Source of the DNA: Cyanobacteriota bacterium
Lineage (GTDB): Bacteria; Cyanobacteriota; Cyanobacteriia; PCC-6307; Cyanobiaceae
Length of the DNA stretch: 48,717 nt
Assembly (NCBI GenBank): GCA_026389285.1
Contig: JAPLID010000160.1
Location: 1 to 48,717 of the forward strand
Direction of reading: 5' to 3'
Part shown: one piece after another, positions 2,076-48,528 of the stretch
How the letters are laid out: each line of letters starts with the position of its first letter
Numbering within the stretch: the stretch's first letter is position 1
The notes under the pieces: model-generated
The model's database searches: none
Seen by the model: only the letters and a program-made list of their open reading frames with translations
What the model was told of the DNA's origin: nothing
Translations under genes and position numbers: made by a program

Positions 2076-3062
2076 TCAGCCCTGAACCGGCTCCTCCGCC
2101 GCGACCACATCGATGCTGAGGAAATCCCTGGCCACCTGGGTCTCCGGGAAGATCGCCCGCGCTTCGGCCACCAGGTCGTCGGGGGTCATGGGATTGCCGG
2201 GTAGGTAGCGCGGGCTGAGATGGGTCAGGACCAGGCGTTTGACCCCGGCTTCCAGGGCCGTCTGGGCCGCCATCGTGCTGGTGGAGTGCTGCCGGGCGAT
2301 CGCCAGCTCCGCTTCGCCGTGGCAGAAGGTGGATTCGTGGATCAGCAGATCGGCGCCGCGGGCCAGCTCCACGGCCGCTTCACTGAACACGGTGTCAGTG
2401 CAGTAGACGATGCTGCAGCCGGGCCTCGGTGGACCGCAGAGGGCGTCGCCGCGGATGATGCGCCCATCCTCCAGGGTCACGGTGCGGCCGGCCTTGAGCT
2501 CGGCGTAGATCGGGCCGGGCGGAATCTCCAGTTGCCGAGCCATGGCGATGTCGAAGCGCCCGGGGCGGGGCTTCTGGTCCACCCGGTAGGCGTAGGCGGG
2601 CACCCGGTGGTTCAAGGGGGTGCAGCGCACCGTCAGGTCGTCGTCGTCCAGCACCAGGGCGCCGCTGTGGGCGGCCTCCCTGACCCGGTGGGTGCGCAGC
2701 GGGTAGCCGATGCGGGTGGAGGAGGTGCGCAGGGCCCCGTCGAGAAACTCGCGCAGCGGGTCGGGGCCGTAGAGGTCCACCCCCTTGCAGGCCCCCGCCA
2801 GCCCCAGGCTGGCCAGCAGGCCGGGCAGGCCGAAGACGTGGTCGCCATGCATGTGGGTGACGAAGATCCGTCGCAGCTGGGAGACCCGCAGCTCACTGCG
2901 CAGAAACTGGTGCTGGGTGCCTTCGCCGCAGTCGAACAACCACAGTTCGGCCCGTTGCGGCAGCCGCAGGGCCACGGCCGAGACATTGCGGGAGCGGGTG
3001 GGTACGCCCGAGCTCGTGCCCAGAAAGGTGACCGGCACGGTCCGCTGCTTGCTGAGCCGCAT
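2076..3062 (-). CDS. rnz: Ribonuclease Z (tRNA 3'-end endonuclease)
   Basis: A 328-residue metallo-beta-lactamase-fold enzyme that trims the 3' trailer from tRNA precursors. Seen directly: [12 protein letters not shown] at the N-terminus, the zinc-binding HMHGDH motif (HxHxDH, residues 70-75) and later conserved pieces [24 protein letters not shown] and VLTHLSPRY. These are the ordered motifs of the short-form RNase Z. The ATG at 3062 gives the normal family length; the same frame stays open about 100 codons further upstream, but that region overlaps the divergent gene and looks non-coding. Confidence 0.93.
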
Positions 3063-3121
3063 GTTGTCATGTCGTCCGGGCGGTGCGGACGCCGGAGGGT
3101 GGTCGGCGACCGCCGGCGCGG

Positions 3122-3127
3122 TCACAA
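3122..3127 (+). promoter_or_regulatory. Possible -10 element for the SpoIID-domain gene
   Basis: CACAAT at 3122-3127 lies 32 bases before the ATG at 3160. It is five of six to the TATAAT/TACAAT-like -10 pattern used by cyanobacterial group 1 sigma factors. The same GTCACAAT string precedes the M23 peptidase gene at 44656. No clear -35 is seen, so this is a weak call. Confidence 0.3.
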
Positions 3128-3159
3128 TGGGGGGCCCCGTGCCGCTGCCGCCGGTTCTG

Positions 3160-4764
3160 ATGCCCCTCTTCGGCTCCCGGAACCAGGATGTTTCCCTGGT
3201 ATTGCGTCGCCTGCGCGCGTTGGGTCCAGGCTTCAGGCCGGCCGGCCTGGCTTTGGTGGCGCTGACACTGGTGGCGCTTGGGGTTGCGCCTCGGCTGGTG
3301 CCCCGGGTGCTAGCGGCGGCCGCTTCCACGGCGAGGCTGGAGCCTGTCGCCGCTGAGCAGGCCACTCCTGCCGCCGAAGCGCCGCCCCTGGTCAGGGTGT
3401 TGATCCGTCAGCAGACCAGCCTGGCCCTGGCGGCGGCGGCCCCGCCCTTGCGACTGGCCGATGGCCAGGGGCGCCCGCTGGCGGAGATCGCTCCGGAGCA
3501 GTCCTTCGAGCTGCGTCAGGAGCAGGCAGGCCTGATGGTTGTGATCGCGCGCGCCGATGGCGCCGCCACGACCCTGGGCCCCCTTCAGGGTGATCTCTGG
3601 ATCGTGCCCCTACCAGCGGTGGGCCGCTCGCCGTTGCTGACGGTCGAGGGCCATCTTTATCGCGGCCGGTTGCAGGTCAGGGCCGGCGGCGACGGTCGCC
3701 TGCTGGTGATCAACCAGTTGCCGTTGGAGCGCTACCTGCCCAGCGTGGTAGGCAGTGAGATGCCGGCGAGTTGGCCGCTGGCGGCACTGCGGGCCCAGGC
3801 GGTCGCCGCCCGCACCTACGCCATCAGTCAACTGAAACCGAAGTCCCTGTTCGATCTCAAGGCCACGGTCGACAGCCAGGTGTACCGGGGGGTGGAATCG
3901 GAGACCGATTCCACCCGGACGGCGGTGGCCAGCACCCGCTCCCAGGTGCTGATGCAGGACAACGCCATGATCAATGCCGTTTTCCACAGCAGCAGTGGCG
4001 GCAACACCGAGGACAGCGGCGAGGTCTGGAGCCGCCAGCTGCCCTATCTGGTGAGCGTGCCCGATTTTGACGAACGGTCGCCGGTGCGTCAGTGGAAGCT
4101 GCGGATTGAACCCGATCAACTTCGCCGCGCCTTCCGCGAGACCGCCGGTGTCAGCCGCATTGATGTGCTCGCCGTCAGCCGCACCGGGCGGATCCGGCGC
4201 GCCCGGGTGAGCGGGCCGGCGGGCAGCCTGGAGCTCACCGGTGCCGAGCTGCGCCAACGCCTGGGCCTGCGCAGCACCCTGGTGCAGGCCTTCAGGCTGG
4301 AGCCCGTTGCCCAGGACCGTCTGGCCCCGCCCGGCGTCATCGCTCAGGCGCTGCTGGGGGCTCAGCCCGTTTCGCCCCGGCCGAACGCGACGGCCTTGGA
4401 TGCGGCAGCCCCCTCAGCGGCCGAGTCCCTGTGGGATTCCGCCACGGGAGCGATTTCCAGCCTGCTGGCGCCACCTCCACCGCCACCGCCACCGCCACCG
4501 CCACAGCTGCAGCTGCAGCCGCTCCCCCAGGCTTCCGCAAGCGGCTCCGCTGGCGGCTCCGCTGGCGAGGATCGAGCCACCCCCATAGCTCCTTCGCCGT
4601 CCAAGCCGGCTCTGGAGCTGGTGGTGGAGGGGCGTGGCTTCGGCCATGGTGTGGGCATGAGCCAGTGGGGGGCCTACGCCATGGCTCTGCAGGGACGCTC
4701 CCACGAGCAGATCCTGCGCCACTACTACCGCGGCGTTGAACTCAAGCCGTACATCAACCCTTGA
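3160..4764 (+). CDS. SpoIID/LytB-domain protein with proline-rich insertion
   Basis: A 534-residue exported protein of the SpoIID family. Relatives act on peptidoglycan: SpoIID is a lytic transglycosylase and LytB an amidase enhancer. An N-terminal hydrophobic segment ([12 protein letters not shown]) suggests a signal or anchor. The core includes [33 protein letters not shown] and HSSSGG, and the family C-terminus [19 protein letters not shown] lies near residues 490-508. Between core and C-terminus is a low-complexity insertion of about 90 residues with 11 consecutive prolines (codons 4471-4503). An ATG at 3127 is an alternative start. Its TGA overlaps the TTG start of nagB, so the two are probably coupled. 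Confidence 0.85.
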
Positions 4765-5573
4765 GCCAGGATCTGATTCGCACTGATGCCACCGGCGCCA
4801 CCGGCGGTGCCGCCGCCGGTTTCGAGCTGATCGAGCTGGCGGATCCTGTCGCCGTGGCCGAGCACGTGGCGGCCCTACTGCTGCATGAGCGGAGGCGGCG
4901 GCCGGAGCTGCCCCTTGGCCTGGCCACCGGACGCACCATGGAGCCGATCTACCGGGCCCTAGCCCGCCAGATCGGCCAGCTGCCCTTTGCCGAAGGCGAG
5001 CGCCTGCGGGAGCGTTGGCTGAGTTTCAACCTCGACGAATACGTGGGCCTCGCCGCCGAAGATCCCCGCTGCTTCCGCTCGGTGATGACCGAGCGGCTGG
5101 TGTTGCCCCTGGGGCTCGATCCCGAGCGGGTGCGCTTGCCCGATGGCACCGCCGCCGATCCCGATGCCGAGGCCGATCGCTACCGCCTCGAACTGGAGGC
5201 CGCCGGTGGCGTGGGCCTGCAGGTGCTGGGCCTGGGGCTCAATGGCCATGTGGGCTTCAACGAACCGCCCTGTGGCGCCGATGTCCGTTGCCGCTGCATC
5301 AACCTTTCGGCCTCGACCCGGGCTGCCAATGCCTCGGCTTTCGGGGGCAATCCGGAAGCGGTGCCGGCGCGGGCCATCACCCTGGGGCTGGGGGAGATCA
5401 TGGTGGCCCGCAGCATCCTGCTGGTGGTCACAGGTGCGGCCAAGGCCGGCATCTTGCGTTGGATCCTGCAGGGGCCGCCCACGCCGGAGCTGCCCGCCAG
5501 CTGGCTGCATCGCCATCCGCGGGTGCTGGTGGTGGCCGATCGGGCGGCCCTGGGCCGCGGCGACAACGGCTGA
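4761..5573 (+). CDS. nagB: Glucosamine-6-phosphate deaminase-like protein
   Basis: A 270-residue sugar-phosphate isomerase-fold enzyme expected to convert glucosamine-6-phosphate to fructose-6-phosphate and ammonia. Conserved motifs in order: LPLGLATGRT (51-59), FNLDEYVGL (89-97, catalytic Asp) and LGLGLNGHVGFNEP (156-169, catalytic His and Glu). The Asn before GH matches the Bacillus-type NagB subgroup rather than the E. coli form. The only start that spans the N-terminus is TTG at 4761, which overlaps the TGA of the upstream SpoIID gene (TTGA). A shorter start downstream cannot be excluded. Pairing with a peptidoglycan-active protein hints at amino-sugar recycling, which is inference. Confidence 0.85.
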   Translation: MSQDLIRTDATGATGGAAAGFELIELADPVAVAEHVAALLLHERRRRPELPLGLATGRTMEPIYRALARQIGQLPFAEGERLRERWLSFNLDEYVGLAAEDPRCFRSVMTERLVLPLGLDPERVRLPDGTAADPDAEADRYRLELEAAGGVGLQVLGLGLNGHVGFNEPPCGADVRCRCINLSASTRAANASAFGGNPEAVPARAITLGLGEIMVARSILLVVTGAAKAGILRWILQGPPTPELPASWLHRHPRVLVVADRAALGRGDNG

Positions 5574-5603
5574 GGCTGAGGCGGGGAGGGGGGGGGGCTG
5601 GCT

Positions 5604-6389
5604 TCAGTCCTGCGAATAGCCCAGGACCGCCTCCAGCAATGACTCCTCCGCCTCCAGGTTGGCCGTGACGCTGCGCACGTCCTCCAGCTCCTCCAGCACG
5701 TCCAGCATGCGCAGACAGGCCCGCAGGGGCTCCGGGGCATCGATTCGGCAGGCGCTGCCCGCCAGCCAGCGGTGCTCCCAGCTCTCGACGTCCAGGCCCT
5801 GAAGGCGCAGACCGTCCTGCAGGGCCTCCAGATCGGCGAAGGCGCCCTGCACCTCCAGGTGATCCGCCTCGAGGTTGTAGCCCAGCACAGCGGGTCCCCC
5901 CGCCTCCTCAAGGGCAAGCAGCCGCTCAAGCAGCTGTTCCTCATCCAGCTCCTGGGGCCGCAGCCGCACCAGCGAGCGCTGCTCGAACAGGTAGCTGACG
6001 CAGCCCGTCTCGCCGAGGTTGCCGCCGTTTTTGCCGAAGGCCAGACGCAGCTCGGCGGCGGTGCGGTTGCGGTTGTCGGTGAAGGCCTCCACCAACACCG
6101 CCACGCCACCGGCTCCATAGCCCTCGTAGCGCACCGCCTCGAAGCGCTCGGCTTCGCCGCCGGCCTGGCCCGAACCCTTACTGATCGCCCGTTCGATGTT
6201 GGCGTTGGGCACCCCGGCCGCCTTGGCCTTCTCGATGGCGGTGCGCAACTGGAAGTTGCCGGCCGGATCGGCTCCGGCCCTGGCGGACACCATGATCTCC
6301 CTGCCCAGGCGGGTGAAGACGGCGCCGCGCCGGGCATCGACCACCGCCTTGGTGCGTTTGATCTGGGCCCATTTGCTGTGGCCGGCCAT
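5604..6389 (-). CDS. yebC: YebC/PmpR family protein
   Basis: A 261-residue member of the widespread YebC family. The signature start [12 protein letters not shown] is intact, as are [34 protein letters not shown] and [17 protein letters not shown]. Family members were first described as DNA-binding regulators; more recent reports assign some of them a role in translation through proline-rich stretches. Which applies here cannot be told from sequence. The ATG at 6389 is chosen because the signature begins there, although the frame stays open upstream. It converges on nagB, with only 30 bases between the stops, including a run of 10 G. Confidence 0.93.
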
Positions 6390-6848
6390 CGCGGTCAGGG
6401 AAGAGGCGGGGGGACAGGGAAGAGCCAGGCCTGGTGGGGCCTGAACTAGCGCCGATCGGGCTGGAGATGTCACCGGCCCGGAAAGGGGGCCAGCCCTCCA
6501 TTCTTCACCGGCACCTGTCGGTATCGGCGTGGCTGGCGCACCAAGCGATGCGTTGCCTTGGCTGAGCGGCTGTGGCCCGATCGGGAGTGGTCGGAGCCGA
6601 TCCCCCAGCGGAGAAGGCCTCAAGCGGCCCATGCATCACTGCGTCTCAAGCGGAGTCCCAATTGGGGCCTCAATTGGGCAGGCAGAAGCAGCAACCTGCT
6701 CCAGCCTTGGCCGAGTCGGACCGGGCACCGGTATGAGGTTGACCCCACGGAGTGATCTGGGTGCTCATGGCCGCTGATGGGCAGGGGCCGACGAGCCTTT
6801 TGTTGGAGCCTGGTTCAGCTGGTGCCGGGAACGCTTAACCGGACCCGT
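6390..6848. other. 459-base intergenic region with a perfect hairpin
   Basis: No convincing gene lies between yebC and truB. The one structured element is an 8-bp perfect inverted repeat, CCCAATTG (6657-6664) and CAATTGGG (6671-6678), with a 6-base loop. No T-run follows on either strand. It could be a weak terminator for truB, an operator, or part of an untranslated RNA. The yebC promoter must also lie here, but no clear element stands out. Confidence 0.4.
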
Positions 6849-7949
6849 TCAACCGGCCGCCGCAACCACCAGCTTCGGCTGCAGCAGCCCGCTGCCATCG
6901 GCGCGGGCGATGCCCGCCAGGCTGCCGTCCGGTGCGACCACGGCGACGGCGGCCTCGGCCGGGCGTGCCGCGCTGTCGGTCAGGGCCCTGCCGCAGCGCC
7001 AGGCGGTCAGTTCCGCTTCGCTCAGGGCGTGGCGGCCCAGGTGGTGGAGCGCCGCGAGTGGATCGAGCAGGGGCGGCAGGGGGTCCAGCTCCAGTTGCTC
7101 CAGGGGGACGGCGCTCTTGAGGTCAAAGCCCAGGGCGGCGGTGCGCCGCAGCTGTGCCAGGGCGCCGCCGCAGCCGAGCTGTTCGCCCAGATCCCTTGCC
7201 AGGGAACGGATATAGGTGCCGGCGGAGCAGTCGATGGCCAGCTCCAGTTCACCGCGCTGCCGATCCCAGGCCAGCAGCTCCAGCCGCTCGATGTTCACGG
7301 GCCGTAGCGCCAGCTCCATCGCTTCGCCGCGGCGGGCGCGCACGTAGGCGCGTTCGCCATCCACATGCACGGCCGAGATCTGGGGCGGACGCTGCAGGAT
7401 GTCGCCTCGGAAGGCGGCGAGCGCCTGCTCGATCGCCAGCCGATCCAGGGACGGCAGCGGCGACTGGCTGAGGATTTCACCTTCGAGATCGTCGCTGCTG
7501 GTGGTCAGCCCCAGGCGGATCACGCCTCGGTAGCTCTTGCCGCCGTCCAGATAGGGCAGCAGCCGGGTCGCCGGTCCGAGGGCGATCGGCAGCAGCCCTG
7601 TCACGGCCGGATCCAGGGTGCCGCCATGGCCAACGCGCCGCAGGCCGTAGCGGCGCCGCACCCTGGCCACGCAGGCGTGGGAGGTGAGGCCCGCTGGTTT
7701 ATCCAGCAACAGAAAACCGCAGAGCTCCTGGGGGCCTGCGGTGGGCGGGCCGGCCGCAATGGAAACCCGCTGGGGGGCCTCGGTGGGATCGTCTGTTACA
7801 GATTCCGAGCTCAAGGGCGGGTCCAGACGCAGAAGCAGGCCACGCTCCACCAGCAAGCCGTGGTCCAGCAGCAAGCCGTGGCCGCGGGATTTGATCCCAG
7901 CCCCTGAGCTAGTCCCCGTCTTCCCGCCAGAACCGATAATGGATTTCAT
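6849..7949 (-). CDS. truB: tRNA pseudouridine-55 synthase
   Basis: TruB makes pseudouridine 55 in the T-loop of tRNAs. Conserved motifs are clear: GFLLLDKPAGLTSHACV, VGHGGTLDPAVTGLLPI (catalytic Asp), KSYRGVIRLG, QRPPQISAVHVDGERAYVRAR and CSAGTYIRSLARDLGE. The conserved domain begins near base 7730 and is the usual length. About 70 N-terminal residues upstream of it look non-conserved and low-complexity, so the true start is uncertain: ATG 7949 is the last ATG, and later GTG or TTG codons are possible. The enzyme identity is secure. Confidence 0.88.
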   Translation of the reverse strand: MKSIIGSGGKTGTSSGAGIKSRGHGLLLDHGLLVERGLLLRLDPPLSSESVTDDPTEAPQRVSIAAGPPTAGPQELCGFLLLDKPAGLTSHACVARVRRRYGLRRVGHGGTLDPAVTGLLPIALGPATRLLPYLDGGKSYRGVIRLGLTTSSDDLEGEILSQSPLPSLDRLAIEQALAAFRGDILQRPPQISAVHVDGERAYVRARRGEAMELALRPVNIERLELLAWDRQRGELELAIDCSAGTYIRSLARDLGEQLGCGGALAQLRRTAALGFDLKSAVPLEQLELDPLPPLLDPLAALHHLGRHALSEAELTAWRCGRALTDSAARPAEAAVAVVAPDGSLAGIARADGSGLLQPKLVVAAAG

Positions 7950-7962
7950 CCGCCACAACAGC

Positions 7963-7987
7963 AACCGCCGCCGGAATGGCGGCGGTT
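7963..7987 (-). terminator. Candidate terminator hairpin downstream of rpmA
   Basis: AACCGCCGCC (7963-7972) pairs perfectly with GGCGGCGGTT (7978-7987) around a 5-base loop. It sits between rpmA and truB, about 110 bases after the rpmA stop. On the minus strand it is followed only by GCTGTTG rather than a T-run, so it may be a weak terminator or an RNA-stabilising hairpin. Confidence 0.45.
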
Positions 7988-8096
7988 ATCGGAAGCTCCG
8001 GCCCACTATTGGCCGAAGGCGATGCCGGCTCGGCATCTGGATGAGCGGGGGAGTCCGGGAGCGATGGGTTCAGCATCGCCGCAGATGGGCCGCGGC

Positions 8097-8360
8097 TCAG
8101 GCGACGGCGACGTGGATGCGCTTGCGGTTACGCAGGCCGCGCTTGATGCTCTCGAAATTGACCACGCCATCGGTGAGGGCGAAGAGGGTGTCATCGGAGC
8201 CCCGGCCGACGTTGTTGCCGGGCAGCACGGAGGTACCGCGCTGGCGGATCAGGATCGAGCCGGCGCTGACGGTTTCACCGCCGAAGGTCTTGACCCCCAG
8301 ACGCTTGGAGTTGGAGTCGCGGCCGTTGCGCGTCGAACCTGTGCCTTTCTTGTGGGCCAT
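8097..8360 (-). CDS. rpmA: 50S ribosomal protein L27
   Basis: An 87-residue bacterial L27 near the peptidyl-transferase centre. The start [20 protein letters not shown] and [29 protein letters not shown] are canonical. There is no cleavable N-terminal extension of the Firmicutes type. It follows rplU with a 77-base gap, the normal rplU-rpmA operon order, and both are transcribed away from kaiA. Confidence 0.97.
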
Positions 8361-8437
8361 GGGAAGGGGAAGCGAGGGGAGGGTGTTGGGTTAGGAGGCG
8401 CCGAAATCCGGCGACAGGAGCGTTGGCAGCTGGATGC

Positions 8438-28926: not shown

Positions 28927-29250
28927 ATGGCTTTCTTCGAATCCGAAATCGTTCAGGACGAAGCCAAACGCCTGTTCGGCGATTATCAGAGCCTGATGCA
29001 GCTCGGCAGCGAGTACGGCAGGTTCGATCGGGAAGGCAAGAAGCTCTATATCGAGCGCATGGAGGAAATGATGGACCGCTACGGCGTGTTCATGAAACGC
29101 TTCGAGCTCTCCGAGGACTTCCAGGCCAAGCTCACCGTCGAGCAGTTGCGCACCCAGCTGGGTCAGTTCGGCCTGACCCCGGAGACGATGTTCCAGCAGA
29201 TGCACCTGACCCTTGAGCGGATGAAGGACGAGCTGCAGAAGCAGACCTGA
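28927..29250 (+). CDS. DUF1825 family cyanobacterial protein
   Basis: A 107-residue soluble, mostly helical protein starting MAFFESEIVQDEAKRLFGDYQSL, with FDREGKKLYIERMEEMMDRYGVFMKRFELSEDF and QLGQFGLTPETMFQQM. This matches DUF1825, a short family conserved across cyanobacteria with no known function. ATG 28927 is the family start; an upstream in-frame ATG at about 28819 would add a Pro-rich stretch. Possible co-regulation with the divergent response regulator is inference. Confidence 0.85.
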   Translation: MAFFESEIVQDEAKRLFGDYQSLMQLGSEYGRFDREGKKLYIERMEEMMDRYGVFMKRFELSEDFQAKLTVEQLRTQLGQFGLTPETMFQQMHLTLERMKDELQKQT

Positions 29251-29360: not shown

Positions 29361-30587
29361 TCAGGGCCCCCAGCGCTGGGCGCCCAGAAAGGTCAGGTCG
29401 ACGAAGTCGCTGGCCTGGTGATCGCGCGGGCCGAGCGAGAGCCGGAAGCCGCCCAGATCCAGCTGGTGCATGCTCTCGAACGCCGTGACTAGGGCCTGGC
29501 GGCTCGGGTTCGCCCCCGCCCTCTGCAACCCTTCCGTCATCAAACGGGCCGCCAGGAAGCCCTCCAGGCTCGTGAAGCCGTAGCGGGCTGTGGTCTGCTG
29601 CCGGTGCAGCAAGCGCAGATACTCCGCCACCACCGGCACCCGCCGGTTCCAGGGGAAGGGCACCACCTGGCTGACGCCGATGCCGCTGGCCATGCCACCG
29701 GACAGGGAGTCCTGCAGGCCACCGGTGCCCACGAAGGAGACGTTCATCAGCTGGGCCGTGCCGCCGAGGCGCTGCAGGCTGCGGCTGAAGGCTGCGGAGC
29801 TCGGATAGGCGCTGATGATCACCACGGCGCTCGGATCAACCCGCTGCAGCTGCCGTGCAGCCCTGTCGGTGGCGGTGGAGTTGCGTTGCACCCCGGCGAT
29901 GGCCACGGGCTTCAGGCCGTGGCGGGCCAGGGCGCTGCGGGTGGCGCGCAGACCATCCTCACCGAAGGCATCCTCCTGGTGGAGCACGGCGATGCGGTGG
30001 CGGCCCGCTCGCACCAAATCGTCGACGATCCGGTCGATTTCCGCCTGGTAACTGGCCCTCAGGTTGAACACCATCGGCCGGAACGGTTCCCGCAGCAGGC
30101 GTGCGCCGGTGAGGGGCGCCACCAGTGGGATCTGCGCCTGCTCCACCAGCGGCAGGATCGCCTTCACCGTCGGCGTGCCCACATAGCCGAACAGGGCGAA
30201 GGCCTGCTCCGCACCGATCAGCTGGCGCGTGTTGCGCAGGGTCAGGGCCGGTTCGTAGCGATCGTCGAGCGTGATCAGCCGCAGCTTGCGGCCGTGAATG
30301 CCGCCGCGCCGGTTCACCTCGTCGAACCAGGCCAGCGCCCCTTCGCGGTAGTCGAGGCCGAGCTGGGCGGAGGGCCCGCTCAAAGGGGCCGACTGGCCGA
30401 GCACGAGTTCTTTGCTGGTCGGGGGTTTTGTCGCCTGCTGGCCTGGTGCGGCCGCCGGCGCTGCGGTCGGCATCAGTGTGGCGAGCAGCGGGATCAGCAG
30501 GGCAAGTCCACCCTGCGCCCCTAACCTCTGGCCTACCTGCGGCAACCTGCCGGTGCGGAAGCAGAAGCGCTGGAACCTCGTAGGCAT
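29361..30587 (-). CDS. LivK-type periplasmic ligand-binding protein (type I PBP)
   Basis: A 408-residue branched-chain amino-acid-type binding protein. An N-terminal signal (LALLIPLLATLMPTAAPAAA) precedes a type I periplasmic-binding fold: LVLGQSAPLSGPSAQLGLDYREGALAWFDEVNRRGGIHGRKLRLITLDD, RNTRQLIGAEQAFALFGYVGTPT, PLTGARLL, and IAVLHQEDAFGEDGLRA. No ABC permease or ATPase gene is adjacent, so transport is not supported by context. ATG 30587 was chosen for the signal peptide; its first 35 bases overlap the divergent channel-like gene that starts at GTG 30553. A sensor role is possible. Confidence 0.88.
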   Translation of the reverse strand: MPTRFQRFCFRTGRLPQVGQRLGAQGGLALLIPLLATLMPTAAPAAAPGQQATKPPTSKELVLGQSAPLSGPSAQLGLDYREGALAWFDEVNRRGGIHGRKLRLITLDDRYEPALTLRNTRQLIGAEQAFALFGYVGTPTVKAILPLVEQAQIPLVAPLTGARLLREPFRPMVFNLRASYQAEIDRIVDDLVRAGRHRIAVLHQEDAFGEDGLRATRSALARHGLKPVAIAGVQRNSTATDRAARQLQRVDPSAVVIISAYPSSAAFSRSLQRLGGTAQLMNVSFVGTGGLQDSLSGGMASGIGVSQVVPFPWNRRVPVVAEYLRLLHRQQTTARYGFTSLEGFLAARLMTEGLQRAGANPSRQALVTAFESMHQLDLGGFRLSLGPRDHQASDFVDLTFLGAQRWGP

Positions 30588-31739
30588 CGGCTCGGTGCTG
30601 CTGGCGACGATTCTGGCCATGATGGCGATCGCCCGGATTGACGTCACGCCGGTGCGTAGTCGCGACGCTCTGCGTCTGTCGTCCTCGGCCCGAGCCCTGA
30701 CCATCGATCCGCGGCAGCTGCCCCCCAGCGGCTGGAGCACCCTGCGCGGCGATGTGCTCAGCGACGGCGAGGCCCGCGTTGACCAGGAAGAGCTGGAGCG
30801 GGCCCCCCACCACGTCAAGGTGGGTGTGTACGCCAACACCGCTTCGGAGCTCGATCTCAGCATTCCCAGCTATTCCTCCAGCGGTTATGTCTGGCCAATG
30901 GCGCCACGATCGATCAGCGCTTCGGTCTGCTCAACACCCTGATCACCGATGCGCCGCCCCAGCTGGAGCCGGTGGCTCAGAAACCGGAGCGGCTCGCCGA
31001 TGGCAGCTATTACCAGCTGTTCACCTATCGGGGTCGCTATTACCTCGATCAGGCCAGCTTTCGCCATTACCCGTTCATGAGTGTCAGCCTGCCGGTGGCG
31101 ATCGAGGTCGACGACGTTGACGGCGGCCTCACCTACCGGCGGCTGCGGCTTGAGCCCGACATCCGCAACAGCGGCATGGGCCTTTACGCGCGCATCATCG
31201 GCTGGCTCAAGCAGGGCTGGTCGAGCGCCGAATACCGCCACCACTACGCCAGCAACTTCGGCCTCGGTGGGCCGGAGAGCGATTACAGCCTGATCCTGTT
31301 CGAGATCTCCTTCGGCACCTCGGCCTGGGCCTCGTTCTGGCGGCTGCTGCTGCCCCTGGCGGTGCTGATGGCGATGGTGCTGCTGGTGTTCAAGGTGCGC
31401 CCCGATGAGCAGGATGCCCGCGCCAGTATCCCGGTCACGGTGCTGCTGACCCTGGTCTTTCTGCAGCAGACCTACCGCGACGAACTGCCCATTCTTCCCT
31501 TCCTCACCTTCCTCGATCAGGTGTATGTGGTGGCCTATGTGGTAACGCTGGTGGCCTTCATCCTGGTGATCTGGATCGGTCGCCGTTACGCCGATATGGA
31601 GGCGATGGAGGAAGGCCCTGCCCGAAGTAATCTGCATCAACGGCTCGAAGACCTCGACAACAGCTGGCCCCTGGTGGTGGTGGCCTTCAGCGGCACCGCC
31701 ATCGCCTTCTCCTGGATGCTGATCCCTGCCGGCACCTGA
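30553..31739 (+). pseudogene. Cys-loop-type pentameric ligand-gated channel homologue, frameshifted
   Basis: Two reading frames make one protein of about 395 residues. Frame 1 (GTG 30553 to TGA 30942) gives a signal anchor (LVGIGSVLLATILAMMAIA) and the first extracellular strands, VKVGVYANTASELDLS then SSGYVW. From about 30895 the protein continues in another frame as LANGATIDQRFGLLNTL to the stop at 31739. It then shows the pre-TM1 strand YSLILFEISF, TM1 with the family proline (RLLLPLAVLMAMVLLVF, 31326-31397), TM2 IPVTVLLTLVFLQQTY, the LPILPFLTFLDQVY loop into TM3, and TM4 (31665-31724). This is the prokaryotic pentameric ligand-gated channel layout. A net change of 1 (or 4) bases near GTCTGGCCAATGG would restore the frame. 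Confidence 0.7.
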
Positions 31740-31853: not shown

Positions 31854-33126
31854 ATGGTTGAGCAGCCCAGTCCCGCCGCGAACGCCGCCGCCCTGCCGGC
31901 CTGGCTGAGCCGCGGCCTGGCCGACCTGTTCCCTGCCGCTACGGCCCCCGAGGCGCTCGCCGACCCGGACCAGACCCTCGCCGCCCGCCTGGCGGAGGCC
32001 CGGCAACAGGGGCGGCCGCTGCGGGTGAAGCTGGGCATCGACCCCACCGGCTCGGAGATCCACCTCGGGCATTCGCTCCTGTTCCGCAAGCTGCGCGCCT
32101 TCCAGGACGCCGGCCATACGGCGGTGCTGATCATCGGCGACTTCACGGCTCGCATCGGCGATCCCACCGGCAAGAGCGCCACCCGGGTGCAGCTGAACGC
32201 CGCCGAGGTGGAGGCCAATGCCGAGACCTATCTAGTGCAGCTGGGGCTGGGGCAGGAGCCGAGCCGCGCCCTGCTGGATTTCACCACCCCCGGACGGCTG
32301 GAGGTGCGGCGCAATCGTGAATGGCTGGCGGGCATGGATCTGCCGGCGGTGATCGATCTGCTGGGCACCAGCACGGTGGGCCAGATGCTGGCCAAGGAGG
32401 ACTTCGCCAATCGCTACGGCTCGGGCACGCCGATCTCGCTGCATGAGTTCCTGTATCCGCTGCTGCAGGGCTACGACTCGGTGGCAATCCAGGCCGATCT
32501 GGAGCTGGGCGGCACCGACCAGAAGTTCAATGTGGCCATGGGCCGCGATCTGCAGCGCCACCACGGCCAGAGGCCCCAGTTCGGGACTGCCGGGGCTCGA
32601 TGGCGTGCAGAAGATGAGCAAGAGCCTGGGCAACACGGTCGGGCTGGTCGAAGATCCGCTGTCGATGTATTCCAAGCTCGAGAAGGTGCCTGATGCGGTG
32701 GTGGAGGACTACCTCACCCTGCTCACCGACCTCGACCTGACGGCGCTGCCGGAGAACCCGCGCGAGCGTCAGAAGGCGATGGCCTTGGCGATCACCGCAG
32801 GCCGCCATGGCGAGGCGGCGGCGGCCCAGGCCCAGGTGGATGCGGCCAAGCTGGTGGCGGGTGCCAGCGGCAGTGGCGCCGCTGAGGCGGAGGTGCCGGA
32901 GGCCTCCCTGGCGGCGGTGAACTTCCCGGCCAAGGCGTTTTATCTGCTGGCGGCGGTGGGTATCTGCGCCAGCAGCAGCGAGGCGCGTCGTGCGATCCAG
33001 GGCGGTGGCGTCAAGCTCGATGGCGACAAGTTGGCCGACCCCAACCGGGAATTCAGCGGCCCTGAGGAACTGGCCGGCAAGGTGCTGCAGCTGGGCAAGA
33101 AAACCTTCCGGCGGCTGGTGGGCTGA
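31854..33126 (+). pseudogene. tyrS: Tyrosyl-tRNA synthetase, frameshifted as written
   Basis: Class I synthetase that charges tRNA-Tyr. Frame A from ATG 31854 carries [17 protein letters not shown] (HIGH-type motif), [44 protein letters not shown] and PQFG. The frame then breaks at about 32585; frame A stops at 32693. A second frame resumes [16 protein letters not shown] (KMSKS motif) and runs through the S4-like tail KAFYLLAAVGICASSSEARRAIQGGGVKLDG to 33126. By family comparison about five residues (LLLPL-like, roughly 14-15 bases) are missing at the break. TyrS is normally essential, so a sequence error, a second tyrS elsewhere, or a real lesion are all open. Confidence 0.9.
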
Positions 33127-48430: not shown

Positions 48431-48528
48431 GCGGTCGCTGCCAGAGGGCGACTGGTGGCTTCGGTGAGCGGCTGCGCACGGTGGGGCGAGCGATGCGATA
48501 AAGAAGGTGAGCGGTTCAGTGCCTATCC

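Follow-up and report, generated by a model that had tools for sequence, protein, structure and literature searches.

A type I periplasmic binding protein gene paired with a pentameric ligand-gated ion channel gene in picocyanobacteria: a candidate two-protein sensor

A 48,717-nucleotide stretch from a member of the Cyanobiaceae (Cyanobacteriota bacterium, GenBank assembly GCA_026389285.1, contig JAPLID010000160.1; hereafter, the window) carries, back to back, a minus-strand gene for a type I periplasmic binding protein (PBP) and a plus-strand gene, interrupted by a frame break, for a pentameric ligand-gated ion channel (pLGIC). A reading of the letters alone (the sequence-only reading) had singled out this pair as a possible small-molecule-sensing channel. 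Here the two proteins are characterised, their association is followed through related genomes, and a model is proposed in which they act as one sensor. The features of the locus are collected in Table 1; L numbers denote loci and G numbers genomes of the survey.

Table 1. Positions of the gene pair, its parts and its flanks in the window.
Feature	Position	Strand	Remarks
PBP gene, type I periplasmic binding protein (Peripla_BP_6), 408 aa	29361..30587	minus	ATG at 30587, stop at 29361
Head-to-head overlap of PBP and channel genes, 35 bp	30553..30587	both genes	given the predicted starts
pLGIC gene, 5' part, first frame	30553..30894	plus	GTG start to ...GYVW
Channel N-terminal helix, residues 3-27	30559..30633	plus	probably an uncleaved membrane anchor; from the model
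Channel linker, residues 31-84	30643..30804	plus	proposed PBP docking element; from the comparison of relatives
Extracellular beta-sandwich, residues 86-268	30808..31319	plus	holds the Pro-loop YPF; interrupted by the frame break
Frame break	30895..30896	plus	37 nt absent relative to the intact gene in L155
pLGIC gene, 3' part	30897..31739	plus	remaining extracellular domain, M1-M4, stop
M1	31323..31394	plus	with helix proline (residue 280)
M2, pore helix	31410..31478	plus	mean identity 97% among PBP-paired channels
M3	31509..31604	plus	from the model
M4	31617..31721	plus	from the model
DUF1825 gene, flank	28927..29250	plus	adjoins tyrS without the pair in 10 loci of the genus
tyrS, flank (tRNA synthetase class Ib family)	31854..33126	plus	frame-broken, 14 nt absent near 32584

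The window channel was searched as a protein joined by an X at the break. In this form it matched NCBIfam LIC (E-value 5e-7), LGIC_1 (1.1e-5) and Pfam Neur_chan_memb (0.0017), in the membrane part alone and with scores under the curated cut-offs (28.8 against 280.2, 25 against 500, and 19.1 against 28.1 bits, respectively), and its match by sequence in the PDB was ELIC, at about 1e-5. The fold was assessed on an intact relative, L033, which is 88% identical to the window channel and was predicted as a monomer; the model (mean pLDDT, predicted local distance difference test, 82.4) comprises a beta-sandwich and four transmembrane helices, and its best 50 PDB matches in Foldseek were all pLGICs or pLGIC chimeras, headed by GLIC (3eam, E 1.4e-18, template-modelling score 0.78 by target). 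Sequence matches and fold place the plus-strand protein inside the pLGICs, as first proposed. The proposed proline in the first transmembrane helix and four-helix layout also held, with M1-M4 present in the L033 model and P280 (M1) invariant in 36 of 36 aligned channels, as is P186 of the Pro-loop; both prolines are kept in the window copy. The GYVW motif, which had been taken to end the strands of the beta-sandwich, lies instead early in the sandwich. In the sections of PMC4795631 drawn on here, the Pro-loop is given as the most conserved pLGIC position. A Pfam Neur_chan_LBD scan of the window's own genome returned no match, its controls included, and is hence uninformative. An acidic residue (D or E) stands two places before the pore-entry Arg in all 18 aligned rows, on a numbering that we take over from GLIC, and suggests cation selectivity.

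The minus-strand protein matches Pfam Peripla_BP_6 at 7.8e-54 (184 bits, cut-off 31.7 bits). Its closest PDB entries by sequence, 4kv7 (1.2e-54) and 3lop (5.2e-51), are also the best structure matches of its predicted model (pLDDT 73.6, poor at both termini). Judging by their titles, several of its 50 best structure matches contain hydroxybenzoates, phenylpyruvate or leucine. The N-terminus, a hydrophobic stretch and then an A-rich site, is a putative Sec signal peptide; the PBPs of L042 and L049 carry an LSAC site, which we take to be lipobox-like and which would tether them to the membrane. The earlier label 'LivK-type' is borne out by the structure matches as far as general likeness goes, without implying leucine binding: the position equivalent to LivK Glu226, presumably the ammonium-binding Glu, is Ser in 39 of 39 aligned members of the PBP family, so that a LivK-like amino acid is unlikely as the ligand.

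Given the starts in Table 1, the 35-base overlap of the two genes is as described by the sequence-only reading; it depends on these starts, and an in-frame TTG at 30545, if used, would abolish it. A candidate PBP start 35 bp inside the channel gene recurs in 12 of 33 divergent pairs, the window's arrangement (8 ATG, 4 GTG), and in another 14 two ATGs share one CATG, all start codons in these counts being predictions.

To follow the pair, 201 genomes of the family were searched with both proteins, at most nine candidates being scored per genome, so that copies were possibly missed. At E<=1e-40 the PBP was found in at least 34 places in 27 genomes, and in all 34 it adjoins a channel-type gene: 27 (window included) lie divergent from a pLGIC, one convergent (G075), and six in line with a Bestrophin-like protein. 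Counted by channel, 30 of the 34 loci L031-L064 have a PBP divergently adjacent, and intact pairs are present, for example, in Cyanobium sp. FACHB-13342 (L039) and in L033. One of the other four loci, L032, is cut by a contig start within the channel gene; the remaining three are L050, L061 and L062, and their genomes (G047, G156, G169) gave no PBP match at E<=1e-40. None of L065-L075 shows an adjacent PBP, with L070 (46% over a part), L073 and L075 lying too near a contig end to show one, and L069 holds remnants of a pair at a contig edge. The convergent arrangement is found in all six members of a diverged channel type, each of which has a PBP. Channel and PBP distance matrices for 30 pairs correlate with r=0.906, a value reached in 0 of 10,000 permutations, and tandem pairs co-segregate, their members clustering with their own kind. 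Divergent pairing is therefore a conserved trait of picocyanobacteria, and the adjacency counts argue that the association of channel and PBP is not chance. Neither of the two outcomes that the sequence-only reading had named as refuting it, a plus-strand protein outside the pentameric channel family or a lack of adjacency in related genomes, was borne out. The pairs in L034 and L064 are of cyanobacterial type, whereas their contigs bear the titles Bifidobacterium breve and Phycisphaerae bacterium MAG; wrong labels or mixed bins are the probable cause.

The N-terminal side of the channel gave the strongest hint of contact between the two proteins. In the L033 model the N-terminal helix (3-27) is followed by a stretch of two short strands and a helix (31-84; the linker), and then by the sandwich. 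A linker score was defined as linker minus sandwich identity, each channel being compared with 27 paired reference channels; 'unpaired' denotes a channel without a PBP of its own, and the window's broken copy was left out, so that the result is one about its relatives. Scores ranged from -0.08 to -0.15 in all 29 PBP-paired channels and from -0.18 to -0.32 in every one of the 12 unpaired rows, which stand for 11 distinct channels since G189hdc and L066 are one gene; the two ranges do not overlap. Among unpaired channels of the type found in an hdc operon (see below), mean linker identity was 0.23 (4 pairs), 0.28 (7) and 0.49 (3) at sandwich identities of 0.6-0.7, 0.7-0.8 and 0.8-0.95, against 0.52 (197 pairs), 0.60 (35) and 0.81 (35) among paired channels in the same bins; one hdc-type pair fell outside the bins (sandwich identity 0.96, linker 0.77). 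Nested losses agree with a drift of the linker in unpaired channels: L061/L062 share 58-64% of the sandwich and 24-33% of the linker with their paired sisters, and L050 shares 78-83% and 59%, as against 86% and 87% for the paired L042-L049. At fourfold synonymous sites the linker and sandwich are about equally variable (0.44 vs 0.42), and the constraint on the linker therefore acts on the protein. Thirty further distinct channels, many of them close relatives of the reference channels, were then scored with a cut-off fixed beforehand at -0.165, and 27 of the 27 scorable ones fell on the predicted side (23 with a PBP, 4 without). The secondary structure of the model fixed the linker boundaries before any values had been obtained; the hypothesis itself had arisen from an earlier comparison of regions.

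Three artefactual origins of this signal were considered and rejected. The gene overlap is too short, since 35 bp covers residues 1-12 only; a promoter effect is countered by the free variation of synonymous sites; and overall divergence fails because L063 and the convergent type, about as diverged as the unpaired channels (their sandwiches are only 42-47% identical to the references), nevertheless score in the linker as paired channels do. The N-terminal helix and M4 do not separate paired from unpaired channels, the paired L063 being lower there than the unpaired L061/L062.

We consider it probable, at roughly two in three, that the PBP and the channel form one sensor, in which the PBP, as a detachable subunit, docks on the linker and sets channel opening on ligand binding. 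Both folds (the channel's on its intact relative), adjacency in two orientations, co-inheritance, and above all the conservation of the linker only in PBP-paired channels favour this model, as do the recurrence of the pair in differing flanks, the presence of distant PBPs beside receptors, the absence of Liv-type permeases from 54 loci, and the N-terminal PBP-I fusions known from alphaproteobacterial pLGICs. The channel would be a homopentamer in the cytoplasmic membrane, probably cation-selective, with its beta-sandwich in the periplasm; the cleft of the PBP would close on a small molecule, presumably not a LivK-type ligand; the ligand-bound PBP would dock on the linker, which connects the N-terminal helix with beta strand 1; and docking would shift the pore between closed and open. 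The PBP would act much as maltose-binding protein acts on a chemoreceptor, the effector here being an ion channel.

Docking on the linker is favoured over delivery of the ligand to the channel's own site. Under delivery, the PBP would capture a periplasmic ligand and hand it to the orthosteric site without lasting docking, and free or delivered ligand would gate the pore. Adjacency fits such a scheme equally well, and concentration or sensing of this kind was proposed for PBP domains and genes associated with pLGICs in the sections of Tasneem et al. (PMC549065) that we cite. It is nonetheless unlikely, as it does not predict a PBP-dependent conservation of a linker outside the sandwich core, and members of this PBP family also occur beside other kinds of receptor.

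These other partners are varied. Bestrophin-like proteins lie in line with the PBP in six genomes (G195, G106, G143, G051, G084, G177), with PF14023 present in all six; the PBPs concerned (L084-L089) are paralogous, and L084 and L086, in which the next gene was scanned, hold a phosphate-binding-like PBP_like_2 gene as well. The name 'Bestrophin-like' follows the Pfam model, and these proteins are putative channels only: a profile of the six found no relative in the PDB by sequence, and none was found in 292 genomes of the phylum, a set that included no genome seen to hold one. The same 292 genomes yielded, at E<=1e-30, four PBP matches outside the family (36-40% identity), which adjoin a methyl-accepting chemotaxis protein (MCP), a PilJ/HAMP protein and two sCache-HAMP-PAS-SpoIIE receptors. 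In L113 (5684-9003) and L114 (5938-9253) the PBP genes directly precede the sCache-HAMP-PAS-SpoIIE receptor genes, in what is apparently a PBP-receptor unit. Given these varied neighbours, the PBP family looks like a sensor serving several membrane partners. A broader claim, evenly poised in our judgement, is that the clade constitutes an interchangeable sensor on unrelated effectors, namely pLGICs (via the 31-84 linker), Bestrophin-like proteins, MCPs and SpoIIE-type receptors, with a heteromeric sensor-channel in the pLGIC branch.

As the sequence-only reading had remarked, no ABC genes of its own lie nearby: the nearest four scanned neighbours (DUF1825, a LuxR-type regulator, the class Ib tRNA synthetase and OMP decarboxylase) include no transporter, and a Liv-type permease was found in 0 of 54 loci (L031-L064, L084-L090, L111-L114, L153-L155, L158, L233-L237), the queries being E. 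coli LivFGHM and five permeases from the window's own genome, which did match two control loci. One generic ABC ATPase-like match was seen in L052, about 2.6 kb beyond the channel. An explanation by co-regulation only would have the PBP feeding an unlinked ABC transporter and the channel working alone, for example in osmotic or ion balance, the two being joined through a shared 5' region. The head-to-head overlap does imply linked expression, and the genome encodes elsewhere two PF02653 permease pairs and a fifth permease without an adjacent Peripla_BP_6 gene (C212; G000:C212:9522-10283, L080). Each permease pair, however, is already accompanied by a PBP, encoded by one of the genome's two further Peripla_BP_6 genes, whereas the present gene adjoins no PF02653 permease; the six convergent pairs share no 5' region; the linker is conserved at the protein level; and distant PBPs adjoin signalling receptors, with no Liv-type permease in the loci searched. 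We therefore regard co-regulation alone as quite unlikely.

The surroundings of the pair bear on a further explanation, in which the two genes merely travel together in a variable island. An ABC1-kinase family gene is found in the flank of 18 loci; in L031 it lies beyond the channel, and the next gene there encodes an Orn/Lys/Arg decarboxylase. On the far side of the PBP, L058 and L064 have a gene in common, identified as a calcium/proton exchanger from its L064 copy, and the remaining flank types are singletons, so the pair persists across differing flanks. In the window's genus the pair sits between DUF1825 and tyrS. Of 41 genus genomes searched, 38 have DUF1825, and 30 loci were returned: DUF1825 and tyrS are directly adjacent in 10, and 7, the window included, carry the pair intact or broken, while in 13 the stretch ends before the gene after DUF1825 is shown, two of which (L159, L160) were read further. 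In the fuller stretches the pair occurs alone in the window, L153, L155, L158 and L156 (1228-3186), the last with an apparent rearrangement of the two genes; next to an hdc operon, with both orders represented, in L154 and L160; and the operon occurs alone in L159. In L157 (1048-1801) an intact hdc operon stands beside a degraded pair: both genes have lost their 5' parts, and what is left are PBP pieces and channel residues 273-395. This pattern of presence and absence, with joint breakage in L157, indicates that the pair comes and goes as a unit. A DUF1825-tyrS gap that holds nothing, the pair, the hdc operon or both is what a variable island would produce, but the occurrence of the pair in several unrelated flanks and two orientations, with a correlated constraint on the linker, makes neighbourhood without function very improbable.

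Several observations weigh against the one-sensor model. The channel persists without a PBP in L050, L061/L062 and G544, and the window's own channel copy is broken. The unpaired channels represent only three to four lineages, of which the tree shows three and G045_38, absent from the tree, may be the fourth; the p value of the linker comparison therefore overstates the evidence. L060hdc, labelled unpaired at -0.18, adjoins the head-to-head PBP of a different channel; if it were counted as paired, the two ranges would touch. Three of the 30 further channels, all without a PBP, were not scorable (one partial gene, two short N-termini), and adjacency was known before scoring for about a third of them; L242 and L243, channels 40-42% identical to the convergent type, likewise have no PBP and an N-terminus too short to score. 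The correlation of 0.906 includes shared species history, a PBP promoter probably lies within the channel gene and could add DNA-level constraint near the channel start, and the fifth permease, C212, could in principle use this PBP.

The break in the window's channel had been read as a frameshift. The frame is indeed broken, and alignment to L155 shows that 37 nt are gone, which rules out a single-base slip; the loss takes out residues, W117 and Q122 among them, that all 36 aligned channels conserve. The other channel matches of at least 53% identity all read without stops. Within the window, tyrS lacks its 14 nt by alignment to L155, and a third gene is split at 48445-48463 (near 48.45 kb). 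Because these two genes are also broken, an assembly error is likelier than decay, though the copy may be a real pseudogene, given the decayed pair in L157 and, probably, in L156. Gene predictions on the window contig need care, as further frame breaks are present.

The hdc operon, which shares the DUF1825-tyrS gap, comprises genes for histidine decarboxylase, a protein of ~656 aa and an MFS transporter, with a related channel type (about 36-38% identical) last (L159, minus strand, 7143-8402, 5172-7139, 4008-5168 and 2728-3918; also L154, L157, L160, L117, L118, L119 and L244). All three hdc-operon genes are present in eight loci, and a ninth ends at a contig edge. The decarboxylase, scanned through its copy in L068 (the same gene), scores higher than the cut-off of its NCBIfam equivalog, and the ~656-aa protein matches no family above cut-off, its layout reading as membrane-sensor-membrane. 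The gene content suggests that histamine is made, exported and sensed by a Cys-loop-type channel.

The natural roles and openers of the bacterial relatives of nicotinic and GABA-A receptors are largely open questions, with ELIC and GLIC serving as structural models. To our knowledge, no ion channel has so far been described as gated by a soluble solute-binding protein; a heteromeric sensor-channel, if real, would be the first such case and would identify a natural input of bacterial pLGICs. A conserved, separable PBP offers a direct way to that input, the linker provides a precise site for mutation, and the fact that related PBPs adjoin Bestrophin-like and receptor genes points to a sensor module held in common.

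The link between prokaryotic pLGICs and type I PBPs to which the sequence-only reading pointed is real. In the sections of Tasneem et al. 2004 (PMC549065) drawn on here, type I PBP (PBP-I) domains are fused to the N-terminal end of alphaproteobacterial pLGICs (Magnetospirillum, Bradyrhizobium), type II PBP (PBP-II) genes lie in predicted operons with pLGICs, and cyanobacterial channels are given a simple architecture. The fusions resemble the present pair in coupling a type I PBP at the channel's N-terminal side, whereas here the PBP is a separate gene, mostly divergently transcribed. The operons resemble it in placing a stand-alone binding protein gene beside a pLGIC, but involve PBP-II in a predicted operon, as opposed to PBP-I (Peripla_BP_6) in head-to-head or convergent order. 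A literature search, with most subscription papers outside its reach, found no paper describing a PBP-I encoded on its own next to a pLGIC gene, and a separate PBP-I gene in this position is new relative to the published fusions and operons.

Partners of solute-binding proteins named in the sections of PMC9602780 drawn on here are chemoreceptors, sensor kinases, c-di-GMP enzymes and Ser/Thr kinases. These SBP-activated receptors share with the pair a PBP as detachable sensor of a membrane protein, and distant relatives of this PBP stand beside MCP and SpoIIE receptors; ion channels are not among the receptor types named in those sections of PMC9602780. DeCLIC, as far as the partial description used here goes, also has an extra periplasmic module before the pLGIC core, but its N-terminal accessory domain belongs to the channel protein itself and is linked to calcium. 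We take that domain not to be a PBP. GLIC and ELIC, the best PDB matches by structure and by sequence, respectively, share the fold and M1-M4 with the picocyanobacterial channel; identity is about 16-18% in structural alignments, and the channel described here differs from both in its extra N-terminal helix, its 54-residue linker and its PBP neighbour.

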